Part shown: one piece after another, positions 1,656 to 11,187 of the stretch | Numbering within the stretch: position 1 is the stretch's first letter | How the letters are laid out: every line of letters starts with the position of its first letter | From: Kitasatospora sp. DSM 101779 | GTDB lineage: Bacteria; Actinomycetota; Actinomycetes; Streptomycetales; Streptomycetaceae | Direction of reading: 5' to 3' | NCBI RefSeq assembly: GCF_025655475.1 | Contig: NZ_JAHTIK010000001.1 | Location: 7,778,124-7,842,123, forward strand | Length of the DNA: 64,000 nucleotides | Notes under the pieces: model-generated | What the model saw: only the letters and a program-made list of their open reading frames with translations | What the model was told of the DNA's origin: nothing | Database searches by the model: none | Program-made: the position numbers and the translations under genes

Positions 1656-3569
<1,914 letters not shown>

Positions 3570-3578
3570 GGCGGCGAC

Positions 3579-4151
3579 ATGTCCGATAAGGAACAGACGC
3601 GTCCCGCCGAGGACCGCTCTCCTCCCGAGCCCGAGCAGACGTCGCCGAAGCGGACGCCCACACCGCAGACGATCCCACGGGCCCCCGAAGCCGGGGAGCA
3701 GGAGCAGCCGCCCCGCCGCCCCGAGGTCGAGGAGCTGGAGGATCGGTGGCGGCGAGCCCTCGCTGACCTCGACAACCTCCGCAAGCGTTACGCCCGTGAG
3801 CTTCCCCGGGAACGGGAGGCTGAGCGGGCCAAGGTGGCCGCGGCGTTCCTCCCGGTCGTCGACAACCTCGAACTGGCCCTCGCCCACGCGGGCGCCGACG
3901 ACCCCGGCACGATCGTCAGCGGAGTCCGGGCGGTACGCGACCAGGCAGTCGAGGTGCTGAGAAGCCTCGGCTACCCCCGGTACGACGAGACCGGCGTCCC
4001 GTTCCACCCAGAGCAGCACGAGGTGGTGTCCGTGGTGGATGGACCGGACACAACTGCGGGCACCGTCGTCCAGGTGCTGCGGCCCGGGTACGGCGAACCC
4101 GGCCACCAGCTGCGGCCGGCCGCGGTAGCGGTCAGCCGCAAGCAGGAGTGA
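3579..4151 (+). CDS. grpE: Nucleotide exchange factor GrpE
   Basis: A 190-residue GrpE that releases ADP from DnaK. The first ~55 residues are Pro/Glu-rich and probably disordered. They are followed by the helical dimerisation region ([19 protein letters not shown]) and the C-terminal beta domain ([17 protein letters not shown]...VLRPGY), which carries the GrpE signature. It starts 9 bp after dnaK and ends 7 bp before the dnaJ-like gene, so the three are almost certainly cotranscribed and supply a complete Hsp70 cycle. Confidence 0.96.
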
Positions 4152-4158
4152 GCCCGCC

Positions 4159-5136
4159 ATGGCAGACGACTACTACGAGGTGCTGGGCGTCCCCCGGACC
4201 GCCGACGCCGCCGAGATCCAGCGGGCGTTCCGTACCCTGGCCCGCCGCTACCATCCGGACGTCAACCGTGATCCGGCCGCGGAGGAGCGCTTCAAGCAGA
4301 TCAACGAGGCATACAGCGTGCTGTCCGACCCCGACACCCGGTCCCGCTACGACCGGTTCGGCCCCGACTTCCGGCAGATTCCGGAGGACTACGACGAGCG
4401 TGTCGCGGCCGGCCAGGGCTTCGGCGGCGGAGCCGGCGCGTACCGCGGCAGTCCCTTCGGAGGCGCCCGGGGCGCCGACCGGGCAGGCGCCCGCACCTGG
4501 ACGGAGACCGGCTTCGGCGCCTCTGGCGTGGACTTCGAAGATCTCTTCGGAGGTATGTTCGGCGGCCGGGCGGGGGGCGCCGGACGGGGCAGCCCCATCC
4601 CCGGCGCGGACCAGGAGGCCGAACTCACGCTCAGTGTGGAGGAGGCGTACCGCGGCGGCCGGCGGAAGATCACCCTCGGCGGTCCCGGCGGGGAGCGCAG
4701 CTACGACGTCACCATCCCGGCCGGCGTCGTCGACGGGCAGCGCATTCGGCTCGCGGGGGAGGGCGGCCGGGGCCGCGGCCCGGGTTCCGCCGGGGATCTC
4801 TATCTGGTGGTCCGCATCGCCCCCCATCCCCGCTATCGGCTCGTCGGGCGCGACATCCACGTCGAACTGCCGGTGACCGCCTGGGAGGCCGCGCTGGGGG
4901 CGACGGTGCCGGTCTCCGGTCCGGGCGGGACGGTCAAGGTGCATGTGCCGCCCGGTACCTCCACCGGCCGCAGGCTGCGGCTGCGCAACGAGGGGATGCC
5001 CGACCCCAAAGGTTCCCCCGGTCACCTCTACGCCGAAATCCAGGTGATGGTGCCGCCCTCGCCCACCCCGCGCGAGCGCGAGCTGTTCGAGGAACTGGCC
5101 GCCGTCTCCTCCTTCGACCCGAGGAAGCAGACATGA
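4159..5136 (+). CDS. cbpA: DnaJ/CbpA-type J-domain co-chaperone without zinc finger
   Basis: This 325-residue Hsp40 stimulates the DnaK ATPase. Residues 1-66 are a J domain with the essential HPD motif (YHPDVN). A Gly-rich linker containing GFGGGAGA follows, then the two beta-barrel C-terminal substrate domains ([21 protein letters not shown]). The four CxxCxGxG zinc repeats of classical DnaJ are absent, which puts it with class II/CbpA proteins. That fits the next gene, which overlaps it by 4 bp and resembles the CbpA partner CbpM. Confidence 0.92.
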
Positions 5137-5522
5137 GAGCCGAACAGCGTTCTCCCGCCGAAGGCACCGGACAGCCCGGCACCAGGGCTGCCTATCCCCT
5201 GGTGCGGATCTACCGAACCAGCCCCAGCCCCTATCAGGTCCCCATGGCAGGAGTGGCCAGCAGGAGTGGACTGCCGCCCGAACTCGTCAGCCGCTTCGTC
5301 GCCCTCGGGCTGGTGGACGCCGAGCGTGATGCCCGGGGCCGGCTGTGGTTCCGGCCGAGCGCGCCGTCGGTTATCGCCCGGGTGCAGCGGCTACGGACCG
5401 GACTGGGCCTCAACTACGCGGCCATCGGCGTCGTCCTGGACCTGCTCGACCGCATCGAACGTCTGGAAGTCGCACTGCGGCGCGGCGAACGAGCCGCCAA
5501 GGAGCCCACACCATGGACATGA
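5133..5522 (+). CDS. MerR-like / CbpM-like chaperone modulator
   Basis: A 129-residue protein with one MerR-type winged-helix region at about residues 35-90 ([25 protein letters not shown] in part), followed by a helical dimerisation segment ([17 protein letters not shown]). It overlaps the J-protein gene by ATGA and clpB by 10 bp, so all three are translationally coupled. In proteobacteria CbpM binds and inhibits CbpA, and in Streptomyces a MerR protein (HspR) follows dnaJ. This protein is shorter and less conserved than HspR and no HAIR sites are present. Modulating the J-protein is therefore as likely as DNA binding. Confidence 0.7.
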
Positions 5523-8128
5523 ATCGCCTCACCCAGAAGTCCCAGGAAGCGCTGCAGGAAGCGCAGAACGTCGCGGTACGGATGGGCCAGACCGAGGTCG
5601 ACGGGGAGCATCTGCTGCTGGCCCTGCTCGATCAGCAAGACGGCCTGACCACCCGTCTGCTGGCCGCTGCCGGCGCAGACCCGGCAGCCCTACGGGCCGC
5701 CGTCGAGGCCGATCTCGCCAAGCGTCCGCGCACGACCGGTCCGGGCGCCGCCCCCGGCCGAGTGATGGTGACCCAGCGGCTGGCCCGACTGCTCGACACC
5801 GCGGAGCAGGAGGCCAAGCGGCTCAAGGACGAGTACGTCTCCACCGAGCACCTGGTGCTGGCCCTGGTGGACGAGGGTTCGACCACCGCAGCCGGCCGGC
5901 GGCTCGGTGAACAGGGCGTCAACAAGGACTCCTTCCTCACCGCCCTCACCACGGTGCGCGGGAATCAACGGGTCACCTCCGCCAATCCCGAGGAAGCGTA
6001 CGAGGCCCTCGAGAAGTACGGGCGCGACCTCGTCGTCGAGGCCCGCAGCGGTCGCCTCGACCCGGTGATCGGGCGTGACGCGGAGATCCGGCGGGTGATC
6101 CAGATCCTCAGCCGCAAGAGCAAGAACAACCCGGTGCTGATCGGCGAACCGGGCGTCGGCAAGACCGCCATCGTGGAGGGCCTGGCCCAGCGGATCGTGC
6201 GCGGCGACGTGCCGGAAGGGCTGCGGGACAAGACGGTGTTCTCGCTCGACATGGGCTCGCTGGTGGCCGGGGCGAAATACCGCGGCGAGTTCGAGGAGCG
6301 CCTCAAGGCCCTGCTGTCCGAGGTCAAGGGAGCCGAGGGCCGGATCCTGCTGTTCGTGGACGAGCTGCACACCGTCGTCGGGGCCGGCGCCGCCGAGGGC
6401 GCGATGGACGCGGGCAACATGCTCAAGCCGATGCTGGCGCGCGGCGAGCTGCACATGATCGGCGCCACCACGCTGGACGAGTACCGCAAGCACATCGAGT
6501 CCGACGCGGCCCTGGAACGCCGCTTCCAGACGGTCCAGGTGGACGAGCCGACCGTCGAGGACGCGATCTCCATCCTGCGCGGCATCCGGGAGCGGCTGGA
6601 GATCTTCCACGGCGTCAAGATCCAGGACGGCGCGCTGGTCGCAGCCGCCACCCTCAGCCACCGCTACATCAGCGACCGCTTCCTCCCGGACAAGGCCATC
6701 GACCTGGTCGACGAGGCCTGCGCGCGGCTGCGGACCGAGATCGACTCCATGCCCGCCGAACTCGACGAACTCACCCGCCGGGCCACCCGGCTGGAGATCG
6801 AGGAGGCCGCGCTGGACCTTGAAACCGACGCGGCCAGCCGCGCCCGCCTGGAGGACCTGCGGCGTGAACTGGCCGACCTGCGGGGCGAGGTGGACGCCAA
6901 GCACGCCCAGTGGGAGGCCGAGCGCCAAGCCATCCGCAAGGTCCAGGAACTGCGCCAAAAACTGGAACGCGCCCGGCAGGAGGCCGAGGAGGCCGAACGA
7001 GCCTACGATCTCAACCGGGCCGCCCAACTGCGCTACGGAACCGTCAGCGAACTGGAGCGCCGACTGGCCGCTGAGGAGGAACAGCTCGCCAACAAGCAGG
7101 GCGAGAGCCGGATGCTGCGTGAGGTGGTGACCGCCGAGGAGATCGCTGAGATCGTCTCCGCGTGGACCGGCATCCCCGTCACCCGGCTCCAGGAGGGCGA
7201 GCGGCAGAAGCTGCTCAAGTTGGACGAGATCCTGCGCGAGCGGGTCGTGGGCCAGGACGAGGCCGTCCAGCTCGTCGCCGACGCGGTGATCCGGGCCCGC
7301 TCCGGGGTACGCGACCCGCGCCGGCCGATCGGCTCGTTCATCTTCCTCGGCCCGACCGGCGTCGGGAAGACCGAGCTGGCCAAGACGCTGGCCGCCGCAT
7401 TGTTCGACAGCGAGAGCAACATGATCCGCCTCGACATGAGCGAGTACCAGGAGCGGCACACCGTCAGCCGCCTGGTCGGCGCGCCCCCCGGATACGTGGG
7501 CTACGAGGAGGGCGGTCAGCTGACCGAGGCAGTGCGTCGCAAGCCGTACTCGGTCGTCCTGTTCGACGAGATCGAGAAGGCGCACGCCGACGTCTTCAAC
7601 ACGCTGCTCCAGGTGCTGGACGACGGCAGGATCACCGACGCGCAGGGCCGTACCGTCGACTTCCGCAACACCGTCATCATCATGACCTCGAACCTGGGCT
7701 CCCAGCATCTGCTCCAGGACACCACCCAGGCCGGCGAGATCAAGCCTGAGGTGCGGGACCTGGTGATGGGCGAACTCAACGGCCATTTCCGGCCCGAGTT
7801 CCTCAACCGGGTGGACGACATCGTGCTCTTCCACCCGCTCGGCATCGCGCAGATCGAGCGCATTGTGGACCTGCTGCTGGAGGACCTGCGCCACCGCCTC
7901 GCCGAGCAGCGGATCGACCTGGTACTCACCGAGGACGCCCGCCGGCTGATCGCGGCCGAGGGCTACGACCCGGTCTACGGCGCCCGGCCGCTGCGCCGCT
8001 TCATCGCGCACGAGGTGGAGACCAGGATCGGCCGCGCGTTGCTCAGCGGCGAGGCACGCGAAGGCGTGACCATCCTGGTCGACGCCAGCGCCGCCGAACT
8101 GACCGTCACTCTCCAGGAAGAGCTGTAG
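5513..8128 (+). CDS. clpB: ATP-dependent disaggregase ClpB (Hsp100)
   Basis: An 871-residue hexameric AAA+ unfoldase that recovers aggregated proteins together with DnaK. It has an N-terminal repeat domain (1-145). AAA-1 carries Walker A GEPGVGKT and Walker [12 protein letters not shown] coiled-coil M domain of ~125 residues rich in Arg/Glu follows. AAA-2 carries [19 protein letters not shown] and the pore loop [13 protein letters not shown]. The M domain separates ClpB from ClpA/ClpC. Start ATG 5513 ([14 protein letters not shown]) follows AAGGAG; a second ATG at 5519 is an alternative. Its first 10 bp lie inside the CbpM-like gene. Confidence 0.97.
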
Positions 8129-8133
8129 GAGCG

Positions 8134-8670
8134 GTGATGACTACTTCTCCAGAAGGCCGCGCCGCCCGCAGGGGCCGTGACGGCAGTACCGACGGCTCCC
8201 GGGCCTCGCTGCCGACGGTCGTCTGCGCCAACTGCGGCCGGACCAACCGCGTGCCCGCCGCGGCGGAGGGCAGCCCGCGCTGCGGAAACTGCCGGGCCCC
8301 GCTGCCGTGGATCGCCGAAGCGGGCGACACCGACTTCGGGGAGGTCGCCGAGCAGGCGAGCCTGCCCGTGCTCGTCGACCTCTGGGCCACCTGGTGCGGT
8401 CCCTGCCGCATGGTGAGCCCAGCCCTCGAACAGGTCGCCAAGGATATGGCCGGCCGGATCAAGCTCGTGAAGGTCGACATCGACAAGTCGCCGGCCCTGG
8501 CACGGCGGTTCGAGGTCCAAGCCGTACCCACCCTGCTGATCCTCGACCATGGCAGGCCCGTCGCCCGCCAGACCGGAGCCGCGCCCGCCAACGCGCTGCG
8601 CCGGTGGGTGGGCGAGTCGCTCTCGACGCCCCGCGGACCGGCCGACTCCACCTCCGGGAGGCCGCGATGA
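8134..8670 (+). CDS. Thioredoxin with N-terminal zinc ribbon (Trx2/TrxC type)
   Basis: A 178-residue protein disulfide reductant. Residues ~30-55 carry two cysteine pairs (CANC...CGNC) that should form a zinc ribbon, as in E. coli thioredoxin 2. A normal thioredoxin fold follows, with active site WCGPC in VDLWATWCGPCRMV and the cis-Pro loop VQAVPTLLIL. It starts 5 bp after clpB and overlaps the next gene by 4 bp, so it belongs to the chaperone operon. Zinc-ribbon thioredoxins are typically induced by oxidative stress and help keep substrates refoldable. Confidence 0.93.
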   Translation: MMTTSPEGRAARRGRDGSTDGSRASLPTVVCANCGRTNRVPAAAEGSPRCGNCRAPLPWIAEAGDTDFGEVAEQASLPVLVDLWATWCGPCRMVSPALEQVAKDMAGRIKLVKVDIDKSPALARRFEVQAVPTLLILDHGRPVARQTGAAPANALRRWVGESLSTPRGPADSTSGRPR

Positions 8671-9022: not shown

Positions 9023-10699
9023 GTGCCGACGCTCACGCCGACGGCTGACGTCTACGGCGCCTATCCGCTGCTGTCGGACGACCAGATCGCGATCCTGAGA
9101 CCCTGCGGACAGGTACGGCCGGTCCGCGAGGGGGAACATCTCTTCCGGGCGGGCGACCCCAGCGAGGAGTTCTTCGTGGTCCTCAGCGGCACGGTGGCCG
9201 TGGTCGACGGCCACGGCGAGCAGGAAAAGGTCGTCCACCTGCACGATGCGCACAGCTTCCTCGGCGAACTCGGCGTACTGGAGGGCCAGACCGCCCTCCT
9301 CAGCGCGGTGGTGAGCACGCCTGGCGAGGTTCTCACGGTGGGCTTGGCCGCCCTGCGCGACCTGCTCAGCCGAGAACCCGCGCTCGGCGACGTGATCCTG
9401 CGGGCCTACCTGCTGCGCCGCACGATGCTGGCCGGCGCGGGCACTGGCTTCCGTATCATCGGCTCCGCCTTCTCCCCCGACACCCGGCGGCTGCTGGACT
9501 TCGCCGCCCGCAACCGCCTCCCGCACCGCTGGGCCGATCTGGAGAAGGACACCGAGGCTGAGGCGCTGCTGACGCGTCTTGGCATCGCTCCGGAGGACAC
9601 TCCGATCGTCGTCTGGCACGAGCACCGGGTGCTGCGCAATCCCTCCAACGCCGAACTCGCCCAGGTGATCGGGCTGCGGACCGGGACCGTCGCGAGGGCG
9701 GTCTTCGACCTCATGGTGGTCGGCGCGGGGCCCGGAGGCCTGGCCGCAGCAGTGTACGGCGCCTCCGAGGGGCTCTCCACCGTCGTCCTGGACGCGGTGG
9801 CGACCGGCGGCCAGGCCGCTACGTCCTCCCGGATCGAGAACTACCTGGGTTTCCCCGCCGGGATCTCCGGCATGGAGCTCGCCGAATGCGCCGTCGTGCA
9901 GGCCACCCGGTTCGGCGCCCGGATCACCGTCCCCGCCGAGGCCGCTGGCCTCGAACAGCGCGACGGTGCCAACGTGGTGCGGCTCGCCGACGGCAGCACG
10001 GTCGCCGCCAACAACGTGGTGGTGGCCACCGGCGCTCGCTACCGGCGGCTGACCGCCCGCGGCGTCGAGCGGTTCGAGGGGTTCGGGGTCCACTACGCCG
10101 CCACCCTCTGGGAGGCACGGACCTGCCGTCTTGACGCGGTGGCCGTCGTCGGCGGCGGCAACTCTGCCGGCCAAGCAGCCCTGTTCATGGCGCGCGAGTC
10201 GCCCGCCGTGCATCTGCTGGTCCGCGGCGGAGACCTGGACCACAGCATGTCCCGCTATCTGATCGACCGGATCGAGCAGAACCCACGGATCCATGTCCGG
10301 CTGCATACCGAGGTCCAGGAGGTCACCGGCGAGGACCGGGTCGAAGCCGTCGTCGTCCAGGACAACCGCACCCGCGAGCAGCAGGTGCTGGATGCCCGTG
10401 CCCTATTCGTCTTCATCGGGGCGCGCCCTGCCACCTCCTGGCTCGCTGGCGCCCTCACTCTGGACCCGCGCGGCTTCATTCCGACCGGGCAGGACGTGGC
10501 CCATGTGGCAGCGGACCTCTGGAAGCCCCTGGGCCGCGCCCCACTCGCCCTGGAGACCGGCCTGCCGGGGGTCTTCGCCGTCGGCGACGTCCGCAGCGGC
10601 TCGGTCAAGCGGGTGGCCTCCGCAGTAGGCGAGGGCGCCATGGCCGTCCGCCTGGCCCACGAGCACCTCGAGGAGGTGAGGCCATCCGTCATCCGATGA
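9023..10699 (+). CDS. cNMP-binding / glutaredoxin-like / FAD-NADPH oxidoreductase fusion (TrxR-like, no CxxC)
   Basis: A 558-residue, three-part protein. Residues ~15-135 are a cyclic-nucleotide-binding fold (GEHLFRAGDPSEEFFVVLSG). Residues ~145-225 look like a small thioredoxin/glutaredoxin fold without a CxxC. Residues ~235-550 are a thioredoxin-reductase-type flavoprotein with GAGPGGLAAA (FAD), GGQAATSSRIENYLGFP, VVGGGNSAGQAA (NADPH) and FAVGDVRSG. Where true TrxR has YCATCDG this protein has HYAATLWEA, so both redox cysteines are gone. GTG 9023 was chosen as the start because the cNMP fold begins just after it and AGGGAG precedes it. It probably passes NADPH electrons to another partner under ligand control. 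Confidence 0.88.
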   Translation: MPTLTPTADVYGAYPLLSDDQIAILRPCGQVRPVREGEHLFRAGDPSEEFFVVLSGTVAVVDGHGEQEKVVHLHDAHSFLGELGVLEGQTALLSAVVSTPGEVLTVGLAALRDLLSREPALGDVILRAYLLRRTMLAGAGTGFRIIGSAFSPDTRRLLDFAARNRLPHRWADLEKDTEAEALLTRLGIAPEDTPIVVWHEHRVLRNPSNAELAQVIGLRTGTVARAVFDLMVVGAGPGGLAAAVYGASEGLSTVVLDAVATGGQAATSSRIENYLGFPAGISGMELAECAVVQATRFGARITVPAEAAGLEQRDGANVVRLADGSTVAANNVVVATGARYRRLTARGVERFEGFGVHYAATLWEARTCRLDAVAVVGGGNSAGQAALFMARESPAVHLLVRGGDLDHSMSRYLIDRIEQNPRIHVRLHTEVQEVTGEDRVEAVVVQDNRTREQQVLDARALFVFIGARPATSWLAGALTLDPRGFIPTGQDVAHVAADLWKPLGRAPLALETGLPGVFAVGDVRSGSVKRVASAVGEGAMAVRLAHEHLEEVRPSVIR

Positions 10700-10737: not shown

Positions 10738-11187
10738 ATGCCCGTCATGGGTATTCCCAAGTTCGAGCGTTTCTTCCGCGCAGCCGCCGGCCTCGATGTC
10801 AACAAGAACGACCTCAAGCGCTACAACGACTTCGTGGACGCCAAGCTCTACGACCTCTTTCTCATCGGCACGGCCAATGCCAAGGCCAACGGCCGGGACA
10901 TCATCGAGCCGCAGGACCTCCCCGTCACCAAGGGCCTGCAGGAGAGTGTCCACGTCTTCAAGAAGCTGGAGGAGGACATCGAACTGCGCCCGCTGCTCGA
11001 CCAGCTCGCCGCCCGCCCAACCCTCGGCATGGAGGCCGCCGAGGACACCCAGCAGTGGCTGCCCGTCCTGGCCGGCGGCCTCAGCGTCGCCCTCGCCCGC
11101 GCCCTCAAAACCATCGCCCGCGACACCCGCCGCCCCTCGACGGACCAGTGGGATGAGGCCTTCGAACTCTTCGACCTGCTGATCTGA
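10738..11187 (+). CDS. DUF1931 family protein (histone-fold)
   Basis: A 149-residue DUF1931 protein recognised by its N-terminus MPVMGIPKFERFFRAAAGLD and the block NDLKRYNDFVDAKLYDLF. The family is nearly all helical, with two histone-fold-like halves per chain, and is found in thermophiles and actinobacteria. DNA binding has been suggested for the family but is not settled. The start at ATG 10738 follows GAAAGGA; the ATG at 10733 is out of frame. It is the last gene of the chaperone/redox operon, 38 bp after the flavoenzyme, and a strong hairpin follows. Confidence 0.85.
   Translation: MPVMGIPKFERFFRAAAGLDVNKNDLKRYNDFVDAKLYDLFLIGTANAKANGRDIIEPQDLPVTKGLQESVHVFKKLEEDIELRPLLDQLAARPTLGMEAAEDTQQWLPVLAGGLSVALARALKTIARDTRRPSTDQWDEAFELFDLLI

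Follow-up and report, generated by a model that had tools for sequence, protein, structure and literature searches.

A thioredoxin reductase-like protein without redox cysteines, fused to a CAP-type domain and encoded in a second chaperone operon of Kitasatospora

We analysed a 64,000-nucleotide stretch of the Kitasatospora sp. DSM 101779 genome (hereafter, the window), in which a gene for a fusion protein follows a run of chaperone genes, in the order dnaK, grpE, dnaJ, cbpM, clpB, trx, zf-UBP, fusion gene and DUF1931 (Table 1). The fusion gene has a GTG start codon with AAGGGAG just 5' of it; in the homologues L007, L008, L017 and L018, the open frame opens one codon ahead of the matched start. 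A sequence-only reading of this gene had placed it three genes after a thioredoxin gene, which is indeed near, but lies two genes upstream with one zf-UBP gene in between. A literature search on the fusion protein itself returned nothing.

Table 1. Genes and protein features of the chaperone operon in the window.
Feature	Position	Strand	Basis
dnaK	1656..3569	+	84% to annotated dnaK of L049
grpE	3579..4151	+	66% to annotated grpE of L049
dnaJ/cbpA-type J protein gene	4159..5136	+	
MerR_2-type protein gene, cbpM in plasmid annotation	5133..5522	+	
clpB (start approximate)	5513..8128	+	81% to annotated clpB of L049
Thioredoxin gene (N-terminal zinc ribbon; WCGPC kept)	8134..8670	+	
zf-UBP protein gene, 87 aa	8667..8930	+	best solved match 2ida
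CAP - glutaredoxin-like - TrxR-like fusion gene, 558 aa	9023..10699	+	ORF, Pfam, NCBIfam, hhalign
CAP / cNMP_binding domain, without cassette Arg	residues 32-117 = 9116..9373	+	Pfam, alignments
Glutaredoxin-like domain, SPDT for CGYC	about residues 140-217 = 9440..9673	+	hhalign, model
TrxR-fold FAD/NADPH core	residues 228-538 = 9704..10636	+	Pfam, structure matches, model, Foldseek
HYAATLWEA at CxxC region, invariant E364	residues 357-365 = 10091..10117	+	alignments
Cys368, sole cysteine kept in most of the family	10124..10126	+	cysteine columns, thinned rows
DUF1931 protein gene (start uncertain; ORF opens 10696)	10738..11187	+	

Pfam detected cNMP_binding (PF00027, E 6.1e-16) and Pyr_redox_2 (E 3.8e-34) in the fusion protein and gave no match for the domain between them, so that the fusion to a domain of the CAP/cNMP fold family, noticed in the sequence-only reading, holds. 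In the AlphaFold model (27 sequences), the thioredoxin reductase (TrxR)-like core was confident (mostly 85-97) and the middle domain middling (about 62-77), while the CAP domain had a pLDDT under 50 and was unusable. The top Foldseek matches of this model were AhpF, which came first, and TrxR. AhpF also consists of a thioredoxin-fold domain ahead of a TrxR-type core, but its cysteines are intact, whereas both thiol sites are gone in the fusion protein.

We compared the core with the canonical TrxR of the same genome (L003), which reads GVSWCATCDGFF at the flavin-side CxxC; the aligned stretch of the fusion protein reads GVHYAATLWEART. The first cysteine of the CxxC aligns with A359, and the second cysteine and the following Asp with W363/E364, with one residue inserted (the aligner placed the gap at L362 or W363). 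The fusion protein has three cysteines in total (28, 289 and 368) and no CxxC, and its score with the NCBIfam TrxR model TIGR01292 was 214.9 bits, below the cut-off of 343.45. It thus shares the fold and the FAD/NADPH core of low-molecular-weight TrxB, but neither its CxxC nor its model score. CxxC was found in none of 67 CAP-type sequences inspected, a set that includes the window's own gene and near-copies. Conservation was therefore counted in a separate set thinned at 85% identity, consisting of 33 CAP-type rows, 17 rows in which a receiver domain takes the place of CAP (REC-type) and 14 stand-alone cores of viral-contig origin; identical copies were dropped, as were core segments shorter than 240 residues. 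The position of the first cysteine was occupied by A, S, E or W in 33/33 CAP-type rows and by G or A in 17/17 REC-type rows, which excludes a sequencing slip as the origin of the loss. The alignment to L003, the cysteine list and the thinned rows agree, and confirm the earlier observation of a TrxR-fold core without redox cysteines.

Other residues of the core are strongly conserved. R401 was present in every row of all three classes; R530 in 33/33 CAP-type, 17/17 REC-type and 13/14 stand-alone rows; Y358 in 32/33, 17/17 and 13/14; and K529 in 32/33, 16/17 and 11/14, respectively. S410 and Y412 were found in all 33 CAP-type and all 17 REC-type rows. E364 was invariant in the 33 CAP-type rows and was represented by 13 Glu and 2 Asp among the 17 REC-type rows, with Glu in 2 of the 14 stand-alone cores. 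C368 was kept in 29/33 CAP-type, 12/17 REC-type and 1/14 stand-alone rows and is absent from 4 CAP-type and 5 REC-type rows; we rejected it as a universal catalytic residue. Nor is there a second conserved cysteine, the next commonest column having Cys in 28 of the 67 CAP-type sequences. The window protein combines the CAP domain, the glutaredoxin-like domain described below and a core with Y358, E364, R401 and R530, the features by which we delimit the CAP-TrxR-like cysteine-less family.

The middle domain had been described as a small thioredoxin-like domain that lacks CxxC. A phmmer search with this domain alone gave a best E of 0.41. Using hhalign, we aligned an 89-row profile of the domain with nine glutaredoxin-family sequences, which were the pattern-matched ones from relatives among 30 loci taken; the probability was 97.2 (E 4.1e-11, 76 columns), with CGYC placed over SPDT. 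The same profile against 28 thioredoxins of the operon gave a probability of 1.2, and thioredoxin was rejected as the name of the domain. The strand-helix order in the AlphaFold model agrees with a glutaredoxin-type fold. The earlier description was thus right about a redox fold that has lost its cysteines, but the domain is glutaredoxin-like and has SPDT in place of the active-site cysteines.

Cyclic-nucleotide sensors of the CRP/PKA type bind the phosphate through an Arg of the phosphate-binding cassette. In a gap-free alignment to PKA RII-beta, this Arg falls on A91 of the fusion protein. Among the 30 thinned CAP-type rows with residues at these columns, the cassette Glu (E82) was kept in all, while Arg stood at the A91 column in one; Arg was within one residue of that column in 8 of the 30 rows, but in none of the 18 that belong to the window's clade (tree support 81/93). 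With the cassette Arg missing throughout this clade, the sequence supports no particular nucleotide and the window protein is unlikely to have a nucleotide ligand; the distant CAP-type members may still bind one. Of the cNMP sensor proposed from the sequence, the fold family therefore stands, but not the phosphate-binding Arg.

The family is widespread. Searches with the fusion protein matched 59 of 296 genomes in the phylum (E 1e-80 or better) and 54 of 293 in the order (E 1e-125 or better). Plasmid records gave 134 matches at 1e-40, 110 of which cover at least 80% of the query, including sequences of Rhizobium, Rhodococcus, Paraburkholderia and Cupriavidus. NCBI already has names for the family, among them 'FAD-dependent oxidoreductase' as well as 'cyclic nucleotide-binding domain-containing thioredoxin-disulfide reductase'. 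Proteins so named have the same architecture at 60% identity, and on a Streptomyces plasmid the same operon, but neither the CxxC chemistry nor the binding of a nucleotide that the second name suggests is supported for the fusion protein. A tree built from 67 cores (thinned at 85% identity) separated three canonical TrxRs from the 64 cysteine-less cores with support 100/100; the branch between them is long, with 2.59 and 0.31 changes per column on the two sides of the drawing root. CAP-type and REC-type rows clustered strongly, but no single branch set off either group (label changes, 2 and 3, respectively); three rows labelled CAP (L043, L069 and L075, the last two labelled by hand) have no aligned CAP residues.

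The operon is conserved among the closer relatives. Among 31 CAP-type regions of at least 55% identity, clpB, trx and zf-UBP were each found on the same strand in 27 and DUF1931 in 16; the clpB misses were L013, L064, L134 (with only 2.1 kb of upstream sequence) and L069, where the reductase-like gene faces dnaJ-clpB-trx on the opposite strand rather than trailing them. Below 55% identity, clpB and trx were each found in 0 of 16 CAP-type regions, and zf-UBP in three on the same strand and one on the other. Plasmids of Streptomyces, Rhodococcus and Nocardia carry the same operon. Since the Kitasatospora genome encodes another ClpB-like protein (57%) and other DnaK-like proteins (58-60%), the dnaK-clpB operon is a second set. 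We conclude that the fusion gene stands at the end of a conserved second chaperone operon, ahead of DUF1931 where that gene is present, and that the operon is also plasmid-borne, which is a new finding. A search for a heat-shock operator motif gave no match at up to 3 mismatches. The zf-UBP protein is nearest, among solved structures, to the bacterial 2ida (E 7.6e-28), and much more distant from eukaryotic ubiquitin-binding proteins (HDAC6, E 1e-4). The DUF1931 protein, presumably of histone-like fold, has as solved relatives 1wwi and 1r4v, both called hypothetical proteins.

Across the 296 genomes, the core and zf-UBP occurred together in 47, the core only in 12, zf-UBP only in 21 and neither in 216 (Fisher p 6e-27, kinship not corrected). 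Adjacency was looser, with zf-UBP within 5 kb at 5/16 CAP-type and 13/72 core-only places. The zf-UBP counts for some REC-type loci are biased, because the regions were partly chosen for a nearby zf-UBP gene.

The main new result of the comparison is a domain swap. The Kitasatospora genome encodes a paralogue (L002/L057), 48% identical, that consists of a receiver domain, the middle domain and the core, with REC in the place of CAP. Its gene is followed by an inserted ORF on the reverse strand (L057 7177-7986, TnpB/OrfB-like by eye) and then by a gene for a CAP-bearing histidine kinase. Among the first 11 REC-type regions, in which receiver domains were detected by BLAST, nine have a same-strand kinase gene downstream (eight with CAP detected) and two have none. 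In 20 further regions, which were core-type places from the 296-genome search (two of them, G177 and G248, with zf-UBP within 10 kb), REC was present in 20/20 and a kinase in 16/20 (14 with CAP detected), with no kinase in 4/20; at L185, the contig ends within the kinase match. CAP-type loci had no such kinase beside them in any of 47 regions, some of which have short flanks. From these counts, the CAP domain is carried either by the enzyme itself or by a kinase that would phosphorylate it. Thus, in a sister group, REC takes the place of CAP and the CAP domain is usually found on the adjacent histidine kinase, and the same input seems to reach the core through fusion in one group and through a phosphorelay in the other. 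Among our observations, the swap points most clearly to an input role for the N-terminal domain. Response regulators that join REC to thioredoxin reductase are in print (PMC5847659); they have the same core, and the fusion protein differs from them in having CAP instead of REC. A few searches near this topic in the open-licence literature returned no mention of the CAP-kinase pairing. At L063 and L197, the REC-type reductase-like gene is followed by three tandem CAP-histidine kinase genes.

A probable relative of the window protein has been purified. ATII-TrxR, from a Red Sea brine metagenome, has 552 aa with Crp and TrxB domains, shares 87% identity with a C. metallidurans protein and is called a high-molecular-weight TrxR by its authors (PMC6544261). 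According to that report, it bound 1.87 mol FAD per mol native enzyme and had a Km of 5.21 uM for NADPH and 4.17 uM for NADH; its kcat was 5.63 s-1 in the reduction of DTNB and 28.4 s-1 in that of thioredoxin (Km 1.03 uM). A figure legend gives Cys206-Cys223 and Cys376-Cys467 as redox centres. The homologue of C. metallidurans CH34 (L142), perhaps not the protein cited there, is 42% identical to the window protein and has cysteines 204, 221 and 374 and no CxxC (GVYYWASPVEAKLC); its Cys374 aligns with window Cys368. Because Cys206, Cys223 and Cys376 of ATII-TrxR are spaced like these three, ATII-TrxR very probably belongs to the cysteine-less family, and its Cys376 would correspond to window Cys368; Cys467 has no match in the CH34 protein and adjoins an insertion that the window protein is without. 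ATII-TrxR, a relative of Cupriavidus proteins, thus resembles the window protein in its CAP and TrxB domains, but has more cysteines and a reported thioredoxin activity. The report provides good evidence of enzymatic activity in the family and weaker evidence of thioredoxin reduction, because no cysteine mutants are described in the parts examined.

To our mind, the chances are even that the window protein is a signal-gated NADPH flavoenzyme on a TrxR fold, from which electrons leave without CxxC, and we take this as the best explanation. With its FAD and NADPH sites kept, the protein would oxidise NADPH and pass electrons from the flavin straight to an acceptor, bypassing the CxxC; Glu364, in the place of the TrxR Asp, would probably donate the proton, possibly with help from Cys368. 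The N-terminal domain would gate the core, here as a degenerate CAP domain directly fused to it, and in the sister group as a receiver domain on the core, with the CAP domain on the neighbouring histidine kinase. The cysteine-less glutaredoxin-like domain would be a linker or docking domain and no electron shuttle. From its gene order, we infer that the fusion protein may act under stress, as the redox arm of the second DnaK-ClpB operon. Several observations count against this explanation: most stand-alone viral-contig cores lack E364 and C368, C368 is missing from some CAP-type and REC-type rows, some REC-type loci are without a kinase, and no single branch of the tree sets off the CAP or the REC group. 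The thioredoxin activity reported for ATII-TrxR favours the alternative that follows.

The window protein might instead be a thioredoxin reductase after all, reducing the operon thioredoxin via Cys368, alone or with another thiol. The kinetics of ATII-TrxR with thioredoxin (PMC6544261) argue for this, as do the correspondence of Cys376 to Cys368, which most CAP-type rows keep, and the linkage of trx, two genes upstream, in 27/31 close regions. The reported kinetics also make unsafe the earlier claim that the protein cannot reduce thioredoxin by the normal route, which fits the sequence, because a probable family member is reported to be active; that activity comes close to the normal thioredoxin reduction named in the sequence-only reading as evidence against itself. 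However, the family has no second conserved cysteine and ATII Cys467 is off the CH34 spacing, trx is absent from the surroundings in all 16 CAP-type regions under 55% identity and in all 11 REC-type regions, a TrxR with CxxC is encoded elsewhere in the genome, and insulin/NADPH assays may mislead through other NADPH use. We consider a thioredoxin reductase rather unlikely on this balance.

The loss of both thiol sites, the regulatory-type N-terminal domains and the chaperone operon would also suit a catalytically idle flavoprotein that senses NADPH/NADP+ or the redox state and signals via its N-terminal domain to the chaperones. This is improbable given the turnover reported for ATII-TrxR (PMC6544261) and the kinase-REC arrangement, which makes the flavoenzyme look like an output, not a sensor. 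Electron transfer to a small carrier or thiol, as by a ferredoxin/flavodoxin- or bacillithiol-type reductase, is very unlikely: such enzymes share the fold, are not known to have the TrxR CxxC and occur in the same structure match list, but the match to canonical TrxR was much closer (7jyp, E 1.3e-43, versus 6.3e-17 for the best ferredoxin reductase (FNR) chain, 8c16), the YpdA model scored 55.6 bits against a cut-off of 339.9, and a ferredoxin gene was in none of the annotated neighbourhoods examined.

Taking the signal-gated flavoenzyme as the best explanation, we tentatively propose, as a wider reading that is somewhat less probable, that a redox enzyme here serves as an output of signal transduction. 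A CAP input would drive a cysteine-less flavoenzyme, with its CxxC-free electron exit, either by fusion or through a CAP-kinase and REC, often with a zf-UBP protein as partner; the actinobacterial version of the fusion would have become part of a transferable second chaperone operon. The databases name the family thioredoxin-disulfide reductases, yet the cysteines that define the reaction are absent; either the name, and perhaps the assay too, is misleading, or the reduction of thioredoxin does not require CxxC. The CAP fusion and the CAP-kinase with its receiver form a natural pair for learning whether ligand binding or phosphorylation switches a flavoenzyme.

CxxC-less cores also occur on contigs classed as viral (L076-L087), most of them without the N-terminal extension. 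All five proteins scanned, the window's included, matched phrog_6397, whose label, ribonucleotide reductase large subunit, looks wrong. In IMG/VR L088 (3-5933), a CxxC-less TrxR-like core follows phage head sequence in a single 1977-aa frame, with a weak Phage_portal_3 match (below the Pfam cut-off) and Pyr_redox_2. Similarly, an 800-aa frame in IMG/VR L091 (3738-6137) combines a weak Phage_Mu_F match (below the Pfam cut-off) with Pyr_redox_2 and a CxxC-less core.
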